Source: Rufibacter radiotolerans
GTDB lineage: Bacteria; Bacteroidota; Bacteroidia; Cytophagales; Hymenobacteraceae
Direction: 5' to 3'
DNA: 64,000 bases
Assembly (NCBI RefSeq): GCF_001078055.1
Contig: NZ_CP010777.1
Coordinates: 518,408 to 582,407, forward strand
Part shown: positions 36,793-57,426 of the stretch, piece by piece
Position numbering within the stretch: position 1 is the first letter of the stretch
How the letters are laid out: every line of letters starts with the position of its first letter
The notes under the pieces: generated by a model
Database searches by the model: none
Seen by the model: only the letters and a program-made list of their open reading frames with translations
What the model was told of the DNA's origin: nothing
Made by a program: the position numbers and the translations under genes

Positions 36793-37662
36793 ATGTCTGA
36801 AATCATCTTAGTAACGGGTGCCACCGGCACCATAGGGTCTGCCACCGTAAAGGCGCTGGACAGTTTAGGGGCCGATGTGCGGGCTGGGGTGAGGTCCCTT
36901 ATCAAAGGGGAGAACCTGCGCCGCCTGCCGGGGGTAGAACTGGTGGAACTCAACTTCTCCCACCCGGAAAGTCTGCGCGTGGCCTTTACCGGCGTATCTA
37001 CGGCGTTTCTGATCACCCCTTTCACAGAAGACCAGGTACAGATGGCCAAGCAGTTGGTAGATGCGGCGCAGGAAGCAGGCGTGCGGCACGTGGTGCGGCT
37101 TTCGGCGAGCGGGGCAGAGGCAGAACCCGGCATCCAGTTGGGCCGTTGGCACCGTGAGGCTGAAGACTACCTCAAAGGCAAAGAACTCAATTATACCCTG
37201 CTGCGGCCGGGGGCTTTTATGCAGAACTTCGTGCACCAGCACGCGGCTTCTATTAAGTCTGAAAACGCTTTTTACATGCCTATGGGGCAGGGCCGTGTCT
37301 CTTACATTGATGCCCGTGACATAGGTGAGGTGGCCGCGGAAATCCTGCTTCGGCCGGAAGGCCATGACGGCAAAGCCTACACCTTAACCGGTCCTGAGGC
37401 CCTGTCTGGAGAGGAGATAGCGGAAATTTTCTCATCGGTGCTGGGCCGGGAGATCAAGTACGTAGACGTGCCAGAAGAGGGCGCCCGCAACGCCATGCAA
37501 CAAATGCAATTACCCAATTGGATGATTGACAGCCTTCTGGAACTGTACAGCATTTCGCGCGCCGGTTACGCCTCTGGGGTGACCAGTGATGTGCAGGAAG
37601 TGATAGGCCGCCGGCCCTATACCTTTAGAGAGTTTGTGGAAACCTACCACGACTGTTTTTAG
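36793..37662 (+). CDS. NmrA-like SDR family NAD(P)-binding protein
   Basis: 289 residues from the ATG at 36793 (an in-frame TTG upstream gives seven extra residues). Rossmann start MSEIILVTGATGTIGSATV, then VRHVVRLSASGAE and LRPGAFMQNFV, which place it in the NmrA/atypical SDR group (such as quinone oxidoreductase-like or regulatory NAD(P)H sensors). No Tyr-x3-Lys pair is evident at the usual position. Single-gene unit. Confidence 0.85.
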   Translation: MSEIILVTGATGTIGSATVKALDSLGADVRAGVRSLIKGENLRRLPGVELVELNFSHPESLRVAFTGVSTAFLITPFTEDQVQMAKQLVDAAQEAGVRHVVRLSASGAEAEPGIQLGRWHREAEDYLKGKELNYTLLRPGAFMQNFVHQHAASIKSENAFYMPMGQGRVSYIDARDIGEVAAEILLRPEGHDGKAYTLTGPEALSGEEIAEIFSSVLGREIKYVDVPEEGARNAMQQMQLPNWMIDSLLELYSISRAGYASGVTSDVQEVIGRRPYTFREFVETYHDCF

Positions 37663-37675
37663 GATAACATAAAAG

Positions 37676-37744
37676 GAAAAAGGAGGGATCTGTTTTGGGC
37701 CTGTTTTACAGAAAACAGGCCCAAAACAGATCCCTCCTTTTTTT
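37676..37744. repeat. Family A copy 16 acting as a terminator
   Basis: Perfect core GTTTTGGGCCTGTTTT / AAAACAGGCCCAAAAC with private arms AAAAAGGAGGGATCT / AGATCCCTCCTTTTT and a T run. It terminates the reductase gene. Confidence 0.93.
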
Positions 37745-37913
37745 AGGGGAAATTCTAATCTTACCCATAAGGCTTCCCCCGTTTTTAGGCCCTGGGCAAA
37801 GAAAAACCGACACTTAATAAACGCCAGCTGATTCCCCTTTCCATTTGGCCAGGATGATGGTGAACATGTAAGAAAGGATCCTTGCTTTGGAAGAAAGACC
37901 TTACACGTTTACC

Positions 37914-37948
37914 AAAAAAAAAGCCCCGCTGAAAACAGCAGGGCTTTT
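37914..37948 (-). terminator. Terminator of the low-complexity gene
   Basis: AAAAAGCCCCGCTG / CAGCAGGGCTTTTC hairpin, U run on the minus strand, 25 bases after the stop. Confidence 0.88.
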
Positions 37949-37972
37949 CTATTAGTTGCTAGTGACTAGCGC

Positions 37973-39835
37973 TTAGTCACGGTCTTCTCTAGAAGAAGAA
38001 CCGCCACGAGAGGAGCGTCCGCTGCCGCCTCTGCTGCTGCCAGATGATCTATCATCATGCTGCGAAGAACGGCCGTAGTCAGAACGGTTCTCATAACCAG
38101 ATCCGCCGCCGCCGTATTGTGACTGGCCGCCTTGTCCCTGGCTGCCGTAGCCGCCGCGGGAACCCATGTCTGAAGAGGAAGAACCGTAGCCGCTAGAGCC
38201 GCCGTAGTTGCTTCCGCCCTGGCCATAGCCACCCATGCCGAAGTCGCGGTTCTGGCTACCATAACCGCCGCCGCTCATAGAGCCGCCCTGGCCTCTGTCT
38301 GACCCGGAAGAACCGTACCCACCGCGTGAGCCCATGTCTTGGCCCATGTTGCCGTAGTTAGATCCGCCGTAGCTTCCGCCTTGTGAGCCATGGCCTGAGC
38401 CGTAAGATGATTGGCCGTACTGGCCACCGCCTTGTGAAGAACGTGAACCGAAGTCCCCGCCTTGTGAGTTAAAGGTGCCGTAGCCACCCTGGCCACTCTG
38501 ACGACCACCACTCATTGAGCCGTAGCCGCTGCTGTCGCCGCCCTGGTGGCCGCGCTGACCGCCTTGCCACTCTTGGTTACCGCCTTGTGAAGAACCGTAG
38601 CCACCGCGTGAGCCCATGCTACCGCTGTCCATAGACCCGCCGTAGCCGCCACGTGATCCCATAGAGCCGGAGCCGTGCTGGCCGCCGCCCATGGAGCCTG
38701 AGCCGCCGTAGCCGCCTTGTCCGTAGCTGGAACCGCCCTGGTGCTGACCGCCGCGGCTGCTGCCTTGGCTAAAGTCTGAATTACCGTCATAGCCGCCGCC
38801 TTGTGAGCCGCCGCGTGAACCGTATTCCTCACCATAAGAGCCGCCTCTGGAACCCATAGAGCCATACTGGCCGCTACCCTGGTTGCTGAAGCCCTGGCTG
38901 TAACCGCCCTGGCCACGGCTTTGGTCGCCGTGTGAGCCGTAGCCGCTTTCACTGCCGTAGCCCATCTGGTTGCCGTAATAACCGGAGCCACCGTAGTTAG
39001 AGTAACCGCCGCGGTCAGACTCTGAGCGGCTGGAGTTTCCGGCGTAGCCGCCTTGTGAACTCATGCCATACGGGTTGGAGCCCATGCCTGAGCCGCCACC
39101 GCCCCAGTTACCTTGTGAGCCGTAGCCGCCTTGGCCGCCACCCATAGAACCATAGCGGTTGCTTTGGTCATCTTGGTTGCTCCAGGAGCCACCGCCTTGT
39201 GAGCCATAGCCGCCCTGGCCACCGCCGTATTGGCCGCCGCCTTGGCTGCCGTAGCCGCCTTGGCTGCCGTAGCCGCCTTGGCCCTCATTGAAGTTTCCTC
39301 CGCCAGACTGGCCGCTCATAGAAGAGCTTCCTTGTTGGCCGTAGTCACCTCCCTGTGATCCGCCGTAGCCCATGCCGCTGCCCATAGAGGCAGACGAGCC
39401 TTGCATAGAGTTGTCTGAGCTGGAAGAAGATTTGCCGGTAGATTTTCCTGTGGAAGATTTGCTGCCGCCAGATTTGGAAGTAGTGGAAGAAGAGGTGCCT
39501 GATTTTGAAGTGGCCTTAGGGGTAGTAGAAGATTTGCTGCTACCTGAAGTGGAAGAGGAGGTTGCTTTTTTAGAAGAACCAGAAGAGCTGCCAGTGGTAG
39601 GGGACATGGAAGTGCCTGAGCTACCTAACCCTGATCCTGATCCGCTTTCACCCATGTTGCTGGTAGTAGAACCAGTGATGCGTTGTGAACTCATAGACCC
39701 AAGGTTGGCATCTGAGTTTGAGCTTTTACCCATGCTTCCAGATGATGAAGAAGAAGCGTTTGAACCTGTGTTGCTGCTTGAGCCAGAGGTTGATCCTAGA
39801 CTGCTGTTTTGCTGCTCTTTTTGATTGTCTTTCAT
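37973..39835 (-). CDS. Gly/Ser/Tyr/Gln-rich low-complexity protein
   Basis: 620 residues from the ATG at 39835, preceded by a clear AAGGAGAT Shine-Dalgarno; an ATG 19 codons upstream lacks one. Residues 1-180 are Ser/Thr/Gly/Lys-rich. About 180-580 is a run of Tyr residues flanked by Gly or Ser (GYGS, GGYGSQGG, SNYGG), with Gln and few hydrophobics. The end is Arg-Gly/Ser-rich with RGG-like pieces and SSREDRD. There is no signal peptide, membrane helix or Cys. The composition mirrors the prion-like and RGG segments of eukaryotic condensate proteins such as FUS. It has its own promoter region and terminator. The continuous open frame, ribosome site and terminator argue it is real. Confidence 0.85.
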   Translation of the reverse strand: MKDNQKEQQNSSLGSTSGSSSNTGSNASSSSSGSMGKSSNSDANLGSMSSQRITGSTTSNMGESGSGSGLGSSGTSMSPTTGSSSGSSKKATSSSTSGSSKSSTTPKATSKSGTSSSTTSKSGGSKSSTGKSTGKSSSSSDNSMQGSSASMGSGMGYGGSQGGDYGQQGSSSMSGQSGGGNFNEGQGGYGSQGGYGSQGGGQYGGGQGGYGSQGGGSWSNQDDQSNRYGSMGGGQGGYGSQGNWGGGGSGMGSNPYGMSSQGGYAGNSSRSESDRGGYSNYGGSGYYGNQMGYGSESGYGSHGDQSRGQGGYSQGFSNQGSGQYGSMGSRGGSYGEEYGSRGGSQGGGYDGNSDFSQGSSRGGQHQGGSSYGQGGYGGSGSMGGGQHGSGSMGSRGGYGGSMDSGSMGSRGGYGSSQGGNQEWQGGQRGHQGGDSSGYGSMSGGRQSGQGGYGTFNSQGGDFGSRSSQGGGQYGQSSYGSGHGSQGGSYGGSNYGNMGQDMGSRGGYGSSGSDRGQGGSMSGGGYGSQNRDFGMGGYGQGGSNYGGSSGYGSSSSDMGSRGGYGSQGQGGQSQYGGGGSGYENRSDYGRSSQHDDRSSGSSRGGSGRSSRGGSSSREDRD

Positions 39836-39971
39836 GGTTAAATCTCCTTTTTTAATGGTTGTTGAATTGTTAGTTAGATAAGAGGTTTCCATGCCAGAGA
39901 AAATGAAATTTCATTTCTATCTTCTTCAGCAAGTGCTTAATCTATACGGGCAGGTGTGGGCATGGTTAACT

Positions 39972-40000
39972 CTTCTCATTATGAATTTTTAAATGAGAAG
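39972..40000. promoter_or_regulatory. Inverted repeat, possible operator
   Basis: CTTCTCATT and AATGAGAAG separated by 11 A/T-rich bases. It is symmetric enough for a dimeric regulator, but could equally be a small hairpin in a leader. Confidence 0.35.
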
Positions 40001-40111
40001 GTTTTAATAGGAAATAAACCGGAACCAGAGAGGCGTTTTAGCAGGCAGTTTTATGAAAATGATTTTTAAAGCAAGGCTGGGTGTAAAATGGAGTGGGGCG
40101 GGTAATGAAAA

Positions 40112-40165
40112 ACGCCCTCTGTTTTGGGGCCGTTTTTAGAAAAACGGCCCCAAAACAGAGGGCGT
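40112..40165. repeat. Family A copy 17 with private arms
   Basis: Perfect core GTTTTGGGGCCGTTTTT / AAAACGGCCCCAAAAC extended by ACGCCCTCT / AGAGGGCGT; one of the longest uninterrupted palindromes in the window. Confidence 0.92.
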
Positions 40166-40495
40166 ACTATCTTTCTTTTTAAGTACCAAGTCTGCCTGTT
40201 AAGCAGCTCTGTTTTTTGCTGGAAAAACCCTTCTGAGACACTTGGCAATACGTATTGCTTTACCCAACAGATAAGCCCTGGGTGCCCCACAAATGGACGT
40301 CCCGCACCGCGTGCTACTAGGTGAAAACACAGGAGTCACCACTTCTCCTGCGGGTCTGTCCGGTAGCCGCAAAAGCGAGGGGAAAAGGTTAAAAGGAATG
40401 CTGGATTCTGGTCTGCCCTCCTAAGGAAAACAGGGATAAAGCAGAGGTGATTCTGTTGGCCATGCAGCCACTGCAAAGCCTATGAATTTCTTTGC

Positions 40496-41596
40496 CTAAG
40501 ATTTGCTATTGACAGACGCCGAGGTGGAGTTTTCTACCTGGGGTGGCTTCTCTACTACCGGGTTATGCAGCAGTTCATGGGCGTCTTCTTTTTCTTCCTG
40601 GTTAGGTTCTGGCACATCATGCTCTTCGGCTTCCTGCGGCTCATAGTTTAACCTGATGAAAATAGGGAAGTGGTCTGAGCCAAAGAACCGGAGGGTCTTG
40701 ATCCTGATTAGGCGGAACGCCGGGTCATAGAACACGTGGTCAAGGGAGTACCGGAAAAAAGGAATGTGGGCATTGTAGGTGTTAAAGAACCCACGGCCAA
40801 TACGGGGGTCCAGCAGGCCGCTTATTTTTCTGAACAGGTTGGTGGTATAAGACCAGGCCACATCATTCAGGTCACCGGCCACAATAGAAGGGTGCGGCGA
40901 GTTCTTGGCCATCTTGGCTACCATGAGCAGTTCGGCCTCACGGGTGTCTGTGTCTTTGTTGAGGTGCGGCGGCTGCGGGTGTACGGTGAACAGGTCAAAT
41001 ATCTTTCCGGTAGGCAACACCACCTGCATGTAAAAAGACGGAATGCCTTCTTCCACCAGGTAGCGCACCTCAGTGTTAATGAGTTTGAACTTGCTGAAGA
41101 ACATCATGCCGTAGGTGTTCTCCAGGGGCTCTTTGATGCAGTACGGATAGCGCTTGTCCAGTTCAGAGATAGCGTTTGCCCAGCCGTGGTCTGGTTCATT
41201 GATGAGCAGCATGTCTGGGTCTGTCTCTCTTACCACCTCCAGAAACTTGGGGTATTTCTTGTTAGACATGCGAACGTTGGAGATCATGAACCCGAAGGAG
41301 TTCTTGGGGGCTTTTATTCTGGACCGCAGGGCCTGTACCTTGGCCAGGGGAGTAAACTGGTACACGTGCACCAGCTCGTTCATGATGGCCAGCCCGATAA
41401 GACCCGCGAAGAGCTTTTGTGAAAGGCTATCAAACCCCACCAACCACTCATACAGGCCCAGTGTGAGAAAGCCAAGCACAGCCACCTGCACCCGGGGGAA
41501 GTCCAGTGCCCTGATCCACCAATAGGTGCTTTTCACTAGGGTGAGCAAGGAGGCTATAATGACAAGGCTGCCAAGTACCTCAAGGGCCGTTTTCAT
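40496..41596 (-). CDS. Endonuclease/exonuclease/phosphatase family protein, membrane-anchored
   Basis: 366 residues from the ATG at 41596. Three membrane helices occupy about 1-85; then an EEP domain with LLINEPDHGW, VAGDLNDVAWS and FGSDHFPIFI, the expected acidic and His residues for metal-dependent phosphodiester cleavage. The C-terminus is a Glu/Pro-rich tail. Relatives include membrane-bound EEP proteins of unknown substrate (lipid, nucleic acid or inositol phosphates). Confidence 0.85.
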   Translation of the reverse strand: MKTALEVLGSLVIIASLLTLVKSTYWWIRALDFPRVQVAVLGFLTLGLYEWLVGFDSLSQKLFAGLIGLAIMNELVHVYQFTPLAKVQALRSRIKAPKNSFGFMISNVRMSNKKYPKFLEVVRETDPDMLLINEPDHGWANAISELDKRYPYCIKEPLENTYGMMFFSKFKLINTEVRYLVEEGIPSFYMQVVLPTGKIFDLFTVHPQPPHLNKDTDTREAELLMVAKMAKNSPHPSIVAGDLNDVAWSYTTNLFRKISGLLDPRIGRGFFNTYNAHIPFFRYSLDHVFYDPAFRLIRIKTLRFFGSDHFPIFIRLNYEPQEAEEHDVPEPNQEEKEDAHELLHNPVVEKPPQVENSTSASVNSKS

Positions 41597-42235: not shown

Positions 42236-43960
42236 TTATCCTTCTGGGGTTGGGGTGGGTGCCGCGCCCTCGCCGCCACCCGGCTTGCGGTTGCGGTGAT
42301 TGCGGTTGCGGCTTCTTCTGGCCCGTTGCTCGCCTTCCGGACGTGGGCCACGCTCTGCCTGTTCTGGTCCGGCGGCTCCGTCTACGGTGGGTTGCGGGCG
42401 GTTTTGCTGGGGCGGACGCGGTCCTTGAAGGCGCTCTGGGCGGGGCGGACGGTTCTCCCGGTTCTCGCCTCTGTTCTCCCTTGGCGCACGATTACGGTCA
42501 CCACCACGCTCACCTCTGGGTTTGCCCTGGCCTTGCGGCTGCTGGCCTCTGTTCTGGTCGCGTTCTGGCTGCGGAGTTCCTTCGGGGGTTTCTGGTCTGG
42601 AGGCTGCGCGCTCCGGGCGGTTGCGTTGCTCCTGGCCTTCGGAGCGGCGGTTGCCACGGTCACCGCGTTCGCCACGGTCACGTTCCGGGCGGGGTCTGCC
42701 CTCAGAACCTGCTAGTCTTGAGGTGCCAGTAGGTCGGTCCCTTCTTACCTCCGGGGTAGCGGCCGTAGCCACCGCTTGGGCAGGGTTTTCAGAAGACGGG
42801 GCGCCACCTTTGTTCTTTTTCTTGTTGCGTTTCTTTTTGCTTTTGCCGTATTGGTCGTCCAGACGGTCCAGGTTGCCTTCCAGGGCTTCCACAAAGTCTA
42901 CTACCTCTACTTCCTCTTTCTTCACTTCATGGGCCAGGTTCTCGGGCATTTCGCCGGCGGCATTCATCTTGATCACTTCATGCACGCGCTCTACCGTCAC
43001 CGGAAACCAGTTGCTGTCGCCGCGGTACCCGAACCACATAATGCGCCGGAAAATATCTGTCTTCTGCAGGAAGGCATCGCCAGCCTTGGTCTGCAGTGGG
43101 CGGTTCAGGTTAGGGATGTCTTTGAGGGCATCCATGTACGTTTCCAGCTCATAGTTGAGGCAGCACTTGAGGCGCCCGCACTGACCGGAAAGTTTGCTGG
43201 GGTTCAAAGACAGGTTCTGGTAGCGCGCCGCCGTAGTAGACACACTCCTGAAATCGGTGAGCCAGGTAGAGCAGCACAGCTCACGGCCGCAGGACCCAAT
43301 GCCGCCTAAGCGGCCGGCCTCATGGCGCAAACTAATCTGGCGCATCTCAATCCTGACCTTGAATTCCTCGGCCAGCTTTTTGATGAGCTCCCGGAAATCC
43401 ACGCGGTCATCTGCCGAGTAGAAGAAGGTAGCCTTGGTTTTGTCTGCCTGGTACTCTACATCTGAGAGTTTCATGCGCAGCTTGAGTTCCTGCACAATGG
43501 CCCGGGCACGGTACATGGTGGCGGGTTCCTGCTCGCGCGCGGCGTTGAACTTCTCCATATCCTTCTCGGTGGCCACGCGGTAGATGGTTCGCAGCTCGTC
43601 ATTGTTCTGCACCTTCTTCTTGTTCATCTGCAGGCGCACTAATTCGCCTTTGAGAGACACGTGGCCAATGTGGTGGCCGTTAGGTACGTCTACCACCACG
43701 GCATCGCCGGTGATGAGCGGCAGGCGGTTTACGTTCCGGAAAAACTCTTTACGCCCGCCCTTAAAGCGGATCTCAACTATATCAAACTCTTTAAAAGACA
43801 CGGGTATTTCCATGTCTGAGAGCCAGTCAAATACATTTAACCGATTGCAGCCTCCCGTGCTACAACCGCCGTTGCTTTTACAGCCCGCAACTACCTCGGT
43901 GCCATCGGCAGAGGTCGTCTTGGTGCCGCAGCCGCCACTAGAACATGAACTACATCCCAC
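42236..43960 (-). CDS. ricT: RicT/PSP1-domain protein with long disordered tail
   Basis: 574 residues from a GTG start with a possible AAGGAAT ribosome site. N-terminal 40 residues are Cys-rich (CSSCSSGGCGTK, CKSNGGCSTGGC). The PSP1 domain follows, with Fe-S-type cysteines GSCGRELCC (about residue 225) and QCGRLKCC (about 262). From about residue 370 to the end the chain is a charged Arg/Pro/Glu/Gly/Asn tail with a Lys-rich start (KSKKKRNKKKNKGG). In Bacillus, RicT with RicA and RicF tunes RNase Y; here it is coupled to gldH. Confidence 0.9.
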   Translation of the reverse strand: MGCSSCSSGGCGTKTTSADGTEVVAGCKSNGGCSTGGCNRLNVFDWLSDMEIPVSFKEFDIVEIRFKGGRKEFFRNVNRLPLITGDAVVVDVPNGHHIGHVSLKGELVRLQMNKKKVQNNDELRTIYRVATEKDMEKFNAAREQEPATMYRARAIVQELKLRMKLSDVEYQADKTKATFFYSADDRVDFRELIKKLAEEFKVRIEMRQISLRHEAGRLGGIGSCGRELCCSTWLTDFRSVSTTAARYQNLSLNPSKLSGQCGRLKCCLNYELETYMDALKDIPNLNRPLQTKAGDAFLQKTDIFRRIMWFGYRGDSNWFPVTVERVHEVIKMNAAGEMPENLAHEVKKEEVEVVDFVEALEGNLDRLDDQYGKSKKKRNKKKNKGGAPSSENPAQAVATAATPEVRRDRPTGTSRLAGSEGRPRPERDRGERGDRGNRRSEGQEQRNRPERAASRPETPEGTPQPERDQNRGQQPQGQGKPRGERGGDRNRAPRENRGENRENRPPRPERLQGPRPPQQNRPQPTVDGAAGPEQAERGPRPEGEQRARRSRNRNHRNRKPGGGEGAAPTPTPEG

Positions 43961-57386: not shown

Positions 57387-57426
57387 CTGTTTTAGGCCCG
57401 TTTTAAGGAAAATAGCCCTAAAACAG
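57387..57426. repeat. Palindromic repeat family A, copy 23
   Basis: CTGTTTTAGGCCCGTTTT / AAAATAGCCCTAAAACAG with limited mismatches. Confidence 0.85.

Follow-up and report, generated by a model that had tools for sequence, protein, structure and literature searches.

A disordered protein with evenly spaced tyrosines in Hymenobacteraceae, a putative member of a stress regulon

The locus and its product

The window, that is, the whole stretch of 64,000 nucleotides analysed here, covers positions 518,408 to 582,407 of contig NZ_CP010777.1 from Rufibacter radiotolerans, a soil bacterium whose genome is one 4.82-Mb contig. An earlier note on this DNA had described a 620-residue Gly/Ser/Tyr/Gln low-complexity chain encoded at 37973-39835, and the coordinates of the frame match exactly; the point left unsaid there is that the gene lies on the minus strand, with the ATG at 39835 and the stop codon, included in the span, at 37973-37975. 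The features of the locus are as follows.

37973-39835, minus strand: coding sequence of the disordered G/S/Y/Q-rich protein, 620 aa, stop included (16/16 genus orthologues full length; pLDDT 39)
39410-39835, minus strand: N-terminal Ser/Thr/Lys-rich segment, aa 1-142 (by composition and alignment)
38936-39079, minus strand: genus-invariant core, aa 253-300, NPYGMSSQGGYxGNxSRSESDRGGYSNYGGSGYYGNQMGYG (dN/dS 0.033)
38822-38845, minus strand: family signature GGSYGEEY, aa 331-338 (by shuffle frequency, 6e-5 per protein, and motif model matches)
37976-38080, minus strand: C-terminal Arg/Asp/Ser/Gly tail, aa 586-620 (by composition)
39842-39853, minus strand: Shine-Dalgarno sequence AAAAAAGGAGAT (AAGGAG kept in 15/16 orthologues)
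39942-39969, minus strand: putative ECF-sigma-type promoter TTAAC-N16-CGTATAG, 107 nt upstream of the start codon (kept in all 16 Rufibacter and all 28 other-genus orthologues)
40119-40158, no strand assigned: intergenic palindrome CTGTTTTGGGGCCGTTTTT..., at the distal end of the 660-bp gap upstream (a repeat, by half-site count)

The product bears out the described composition (G 32.1, S 26.1, Q 8.5, Y 6.5, N 4.2 and R 4.0%), with scarce hydrophobic residues (Ile, Leu, Val and Cys together 0.6%), three Trp and, as the note had also said, dozens of Tyr flanked by Gly/Ser (23 of the 40 Tyr lie within [GS]Y[GS]). The N-terminal segment is rich in S (41%), T (13%) and K (8%), carries a net charge of +8 and lacks Tyr; S103 and T105-P106-K107-A108 are invariant in it. 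Ten RGG were counted in the whole chain. The terminal Arg-Gly/Ser segment that had been likened to an RGG region is indeed rich in Arg (20%), but with 17% D+E its net charge is only +1, and therefore it is not a strongly basic RGG domain. Codon usage departs from that of the window genes chiefly by avoiding rare Arg and Gly codons and by a preference for CAA.

The product has no significant match in Pfam or NCBIfam, and a PDB search gave nothing significant (a single match at E 3.8). AlphaFold2, run with 12 orthologues, predicted neither a helix nor a fold for the window protein (mean pLDDT 39.4; 599 of the 620 residues below 50). By Pfam/NCBIfam together with AlphaFold2, a folded RNA-binding domain (RRM, zinc finger) is absent from the chain; by Pfam/NCBIfam, so is a cold-shock domain in the same polypeptide, and by Pfam a LEA motif. 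The protein has no signal peptide, lipobox or Cys. These results agree with the earlier description of a chain lacking a folded domain, a signal peptide and Cys. Rfam gave no match over 37000-41000, and our literature search found no paper describing the protein family.

Conservation and selection within the Rufibacter group

A full-length orthologue, 620 to 756 aa long, was found in 16 of the 16 genomes of the Rufibacter group (g1, comprising Rufibacter species and Sabulibacter ruber). The gene order in the genus is RicT/PSP1, GldH, EEP nuclease, the disordered-protein gene, NmrA and helicase; the genes from RicT to the disordered-protein gene lie on one strand in an order kept within the genus, and NmrA is missing from view in two of the 11 relatives' loci examined. 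The RicT-like PSP1-domain protein of the window (42236-43813, minus strand) itself carries a long disordered tail rich in Arg/Gly/Pro/Gln, which may be an extension for RNA binding.

The dN/dS of the whole gene was 0.19, with pS of 0.59 (about 0.5-0.6), which is near-saturated. The ratio fell to 0.033 in residues 253-300, a core with a nearly invariant run of more than 40 residues across the genus orthologues, and was highest, 0.30, at the N-terminus, the least constrained region. Over the same set of species, the proteins of neighbouring genes share about 70-80% identity. In the alignment Tyr is the best-retained common residue (0.90, or 0.87 outside the core), followed by Gly (0.86), Ser (0.69) and Gln (0.54); note that the alignment favours Tyr-Tyr matching, so that this ranking is more reliable than the absolute values. 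The earlier note had named presence in a single strain and a repeat artefact as findings that would speak against it, and both are rejected by the occurrence in all 16 genus genomes, by purifying selection and by the gene DNA, which holds only two short tandem arrays (59 and 47 bp). The data show a real, conserved coding gene under strong purifying selection.

Recovery of the gene across Hymenobacteraceae

Sequence searches fail on disordered proteins, which makes these hard to trace, and a direct search indeed calls this gene absent outside the genus: none of the 84 genomes sampled from other genera gave a match at E<=0.001, and a model of the genus core gave only chance-level matches there (E of at least 0.09). 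The reading of the gene as genus-restricted was nevertheless rejected when the syntenic slot was inspected in other genera, here grouped as g2-g6, which we take to be Adhaeribacter-, Pontibacter- and Hymenobacter-like. Beside the EEP gene in g2, g3 and g4, all of the 15 genomes sampled have a G/S/Q/Y/N-rich frame of 533-689 aa in the same orientation. All 31 orthologues from these four genera, Rufibacter included, contain a single copy of the pattern GGSY[NDGS][DE]E[YM], which turns up at 6e-5 per protein in shuffled versions; the pattern had been derived from the very sequences on which it was counted. It was clearer than a motif matrix trained on Rufibacter alone, which performed poorly on some genera (0-22 of 500 shuffles).

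A 42-residue motif model gave one match per listed g1-g4 genome (E 1e-9 to 1e-18), weaker matches in g5 and g6 genomes, and no match outside the family, where about 212 genomes from the rest of the order were covered. In g5 and g6, 12 of the 17 fetched matches, together with three loci linked to a cold-shock protein gene (csp), carry the motif-type protein in the same neighbourhood. A composition filter had suggested Hymenobacter-type genomes without the gene, which the motif model overturned. Synteny and one short motif place the gene family across the family Hymenobacteraceae, at the same chromosomal spot. The 44 orthologues used below (16 from the Rufibacter group and 28 from other genera) are related, and counts over them are not independent trials.

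The upstream region and a putative stress-type promoter

The ribosome site had been called unusually good for this genome, which holds: only five of the 53 window genes have a comparable one. The large upstream control region proposed earlier survives in part, as the 660-bp gap contains a conserved putative promoter, but the palindrome in it is a repeated element of this genome. The palindrome family CTGTTTTGGGCCxGTTTTT is found in the window at 37690-37729, 40119-40158 and 57387-57426, with half-sites elsewhere, and similar palindromes lie upstream of the gene in several relatives. Half-sites match 11 times in the window, where 0.1 matches would be expected, and a role as a private regulator of the gene was therefore rejected; the palindrome looks like a genus-wide REP or terminator-type repeat.

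In the alignment of the 16 Rufibacter upstream regions little is conserved save the block TTAACCATG...CGTATAG. An AAC -35 box, a spacer of about 16 nt and a CGTA -10 box are the shape of ECF sigma promoters. AAC-N16/17-CGTAT was found 56-200 nt 5' of the ATG in 28 of the 28 other-genus orthologues, against a background of 0.7% per 260 bp. The source genome has 14 AAC-N16-CGTATA sites and 22 of a reversed control, so there is no raw-count enrichment and the case for the promoter rests on its position and on the identity of the genes downstream. Nine of the 14 sites precede a same-strand gene, namely the disordered-protein gene, both DUF892 genes, two DUF4142 genes, one DUF305 gene, one YceI gene and two further ORFs, a short unassigned one with a weak, below-cutoff Pfam match and one for a 433-aa G/S/Y/N-rich protein.

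Because the promoter had been spotted by inspecting the gene itself, DUF892 genes served as an independent check: AAC-N15/17-CGTA lies upstream of 19 of the 21 genes, in 11 of the 12 genomes and in six genera. The background of this looser form is 2.9%, and several of the 19 sites do not continue with TA or TAT. DUF892 proteins (YciE/YciF of E. coli) are stress proteins. Since the orthologues share this promoter with DUF892 and the other genes, the disordered-protein gene most likely belongs to a stress regulon, and an ECF-type sigma factor probably switches it on along with the DUF892, DUF4142, DUF305 and YceI genes. The common promoter supports the suggestion of the earlier note that the protein may be expressed under stress.

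Two of these loci deserve description. The 433-aa protein (L217, at about 2,394,091 of the same genome; site 1501-1525, ORF 1589-2890 on the plus strand) is also disordered and ends ...EDEGFFERIGHGIKDAWNSIAGDDED..., a C-terminus which we take to recall the SWFGD-type ending of some stress proteins. Elsewhere in the genome (L221/L222), two tandem genes for DUF4142 lipoprotein-like products each have their own AAC-N16-CGTATA, which suggests a multi-promoter stress locus.

The cold-shock neighbour

A gene for a 63-aa CspA-type protein is divergently adjacent to the disordered-protein gene in 15 of the 15 g2-g4 loci and in 14 of the 15 g5/g6 loci. It is absent from the window and from eleven 12-kb Rufibacter-group loci (L031-L041), 12 of 12 in all, and the source genome has csp genes elsewhere; lineage-specific loss or relocation would account for its absence. 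The adjacency alone does not establish a shared function, and the Rufibacter loci lacking this neighbour weaken an obligate Csp partnership. Near the csp gene of one g5 locus (L128:6678-7676) lies a different protein, of 332 aa and rich in Y/R/D/G, with duplicated SSDYGPAYEREHPGAGMGRGYRSDLYEG blocks, which appears to be another csp-linked type of disordered protein.

Features conserved in the family

All 44 orthologues lie within the hydrophilin thresholds (glycine >6-8%, mean hydrophilicity >1; PMC6730492), having 13-35% Gly and a mean hydrophilicity of 1.09-2.05, and Cys is absent. Their composition drifts. The low-complexity G/S/Y/Q type is seen in g1-g3 and g5, the proteins of g4 are N/Q/D/R-rich, their spacers having shifted from G/S, and most g6 forms are not low-complexity. 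Ten of the 13 g5/g6 proteins are 297-441 aa long and mostly A/P/T/E/D-rich, and these short Hymenobacter-type orthologues have 10-24 Tyr, in which evenness of spacing is slight or absent.

Among the long orthologues, 34 in number, 40-56 aromatics fall within the final 65% of the chain whatever the spacer chemistry, and in every one of these proteins the aromatics are more evenly spaced than in 999-1000 of 1000 shuffles. Spacing was scored on this part of the protein, because over the full length one N-terminal aromatic was enough to create false outliers. The mean z in Rufibacter was -3.5 for aromatics, the means for R, Q, M, D/E, N and S ranged from -1.4 to +0.6, and ordinary proteins of the window gave a mean z of +0.3 for aromatics (lowest -1.6). 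Even Tyr spacing could partly stem from GGYGSQ-like micro-duplications; the other residues of such repeats show no even spacing.

These results show that disorder, hydrophilicity and the motif are conserved, plus aromatic patterning in the long forms. The FUS-like composition emphasized in the earlier note is found in Rufibacter but is lineage-specific and not the conserved feature of the family, because the shorter Hymenobacter-type forms are A/P/E-rich; for the family as a whole, hydrophilin-like is therefore the better label. As the short forms lack clear even spacing, dense stickers either arose later as an elaboration or were thinned out in these forms, and the sparse Tyr of these forms implies that dense stickers were unneeded for whatever the ancestral function was.

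Proposed function and alternatives

With moderate confidence, we propose that the gene encodes a stress-induced disordered sticker-and-spacer protein of Hymenobacteraceae, whose Tyr-driven condensates or gel would protect cell contents. The model that we infer comprises sigma-factor control, stress induction, condensation, a protective role and an involvement of RNA or Csp. Stress would activate an ECF sigma factor, a step suggested by motif conservation, and strong transcription together with the strong ribosome site would raise the protein level. About 50 evenly spaced aromatics, mostly Tyr, would then act as weak stickers, with Gly/Ser/Gln as spacer and Arg as helper, and, to judge from the sequence grammar, Tyr stickers would cross-link chains into cytoplasmic droplets or a gel. 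By analogy, these may protect cell contents, plausibly RNA, in cold, drying or osmotic stress until recovery. In most genera the divergent CspA-type protein would supply the RNA-binding part, possibly holding RNA. A more specific version is offered tentatively, being appreciably less probable than the general proposal: a stand-alone, stress-regulated, prion-like scaffold acting in trans with a divergently encoded CspA-type RNA chaperone. The pair would amount to a glycine-rich RNA-binding protein split in two; the scaffold would keep the number and spacing of its aromatics while its spacers drift between genera, and its ancestor would have been hydrophilin-like.

The main rival is a plain, non-condensing hydrophilin, a soluble LEA-like shield, made under stress, for enzymes or membranes, acting by hydration and volume exclusion with no phase separation, in which the Tyr-rich composition of some genera is neutral spacer drift. 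That all 44 orthologues lie within the hydrophilin thresholds, including the short ones without FUS-like composition, and that all share the stress-type promoter would be expected of such a shield. However, neutral drift of spacers predicts neither the retention of Tyr nor the uniquely even aromatics, which lend indirect support to condensation, and most hydrophilins are without Trp (PMC3691520), of which the 620-aa protein has three. We consider this rival rather doubtful, though it deserves to be kept in mind.

The place near gldH might suggest an exported glycine-rich matrix or surface protein (biofilm, capsule or gliding-related), and the one-strand order from RicT through GldH and the EEP nuclease to the gene is conserved in the genus; glycine-rich proteins, moreover, are often structural outside cells. 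Such a role is improbable for a protein without signal peptide, lipobox or Cys, whose gene has its own promoter and, in other genera, is separated from the gldH side by an oppositely oriented csp. Marginally less probable still is a protein coating the nucleoid or RNA through its S/T/K-rich N-terminus (S-x-TPKA), with the G/S/Y region as a linker: the net charge of +8 over 142 aa and the invariant S103 and T105-P106-K107-A108 speak for it, but the N-terminus is the region under least constraint. The low complexity and the range of lengths within the genus might also betray a relaxed, slippage-driven ORF without function, but this is already contradicted by selection (dN/dS 0.19, 0.03 in the core, with pS of about 0.5-0.6) and by the ribosome site, promoter, synteny and motif conserved across six genus groups, which leave it a very small probability.

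Under the proposed sticker-and-spacer model, the orthologues amount to a ready-made comparison: spacers vary against an unchanging set of aromatic stickers, and some lineages have few stickers. With it one can ask directly which properties of a condensing protein are maintained by selection, and whether bacteria gain protection from drying or cold by condensation.

Comparison with known systems

At 6.5%, Tyr is about half as dense in the present protein as in the FUS low-complexity domain, which counts against the proposed condensation, as does the sparse Tyr of the short forms. The protein resembles the prion-like domains of FUS and the FET family in being a disordered G/S/Y/Q chain with Gly/Ser spacers, even aromatics and Arg as a possible auxiliary sticker, and in such domains aromatic stickers are evenly distributed across homologues (PMC10491635). 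In contrast to them it is bacterial and stand-alone, without an RRM, a zinc finger or a strongly basic RGG region; no sequence homology was detected, and its condensation is only predicted. With hydrophilins and LEA proteins it shares richness in Gly, hydrophilicity >1, disorder, the absence of Cys and a stress-type promoter, but it differs from them in its high content of regularly spaced Tyr, its low charge and the absence of a LEA motif.

Plant proteins of the AtGRP2 type combine a cold-shock domain and a Gly-rich disordered region in a single polypeptide, and AtGRP2 undergoes phase separation in vitro (PMC13261584). The bacterial pair could be the same idea split over two genes, since here also a CspA-like domain goes together with a Gly/Tyr/Arg-rich disordered partner and the setting is one of stress, as in the CSD class of glycine-rich RNA-binding proteins (PMC13261584, PMC11602973); unlike in that class, the two are encoded by divergent genes and would act in trans, and csp is absent at the Rufibacter locus. 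Tardigrade CAHS proteins are likewise disordered and stress-linked, with a proposed gel-type protection, but their gelation needs a helical C-terminal region (PMC9592077), whereas no helix is predicted here.

The promoter recalls the EcfG regulon of Alphaproteobacteria, in which an AAC -35 and a GT-containing -10 precede many small stress or hypothetical genes; the motifs differ, being AAC-N16/17-CGTAT here and GGAAC-N17-20-GTT for EcfG (PMC6599016), and EcfG itself is exclusive to Alphaproteobacteria (PMC3892343). A parallel within Bacteroidota is the Rho factor of Bacteroides thetaiotaomicron (BtRho), in which a disordered region drives stress-controlled condensation with RNA; BtRho, however, is an enzyme with a KE-rich disordered insert (PMC13269538), whereas the present protein has no folded domain and follows a Tyr/Gly grammar.
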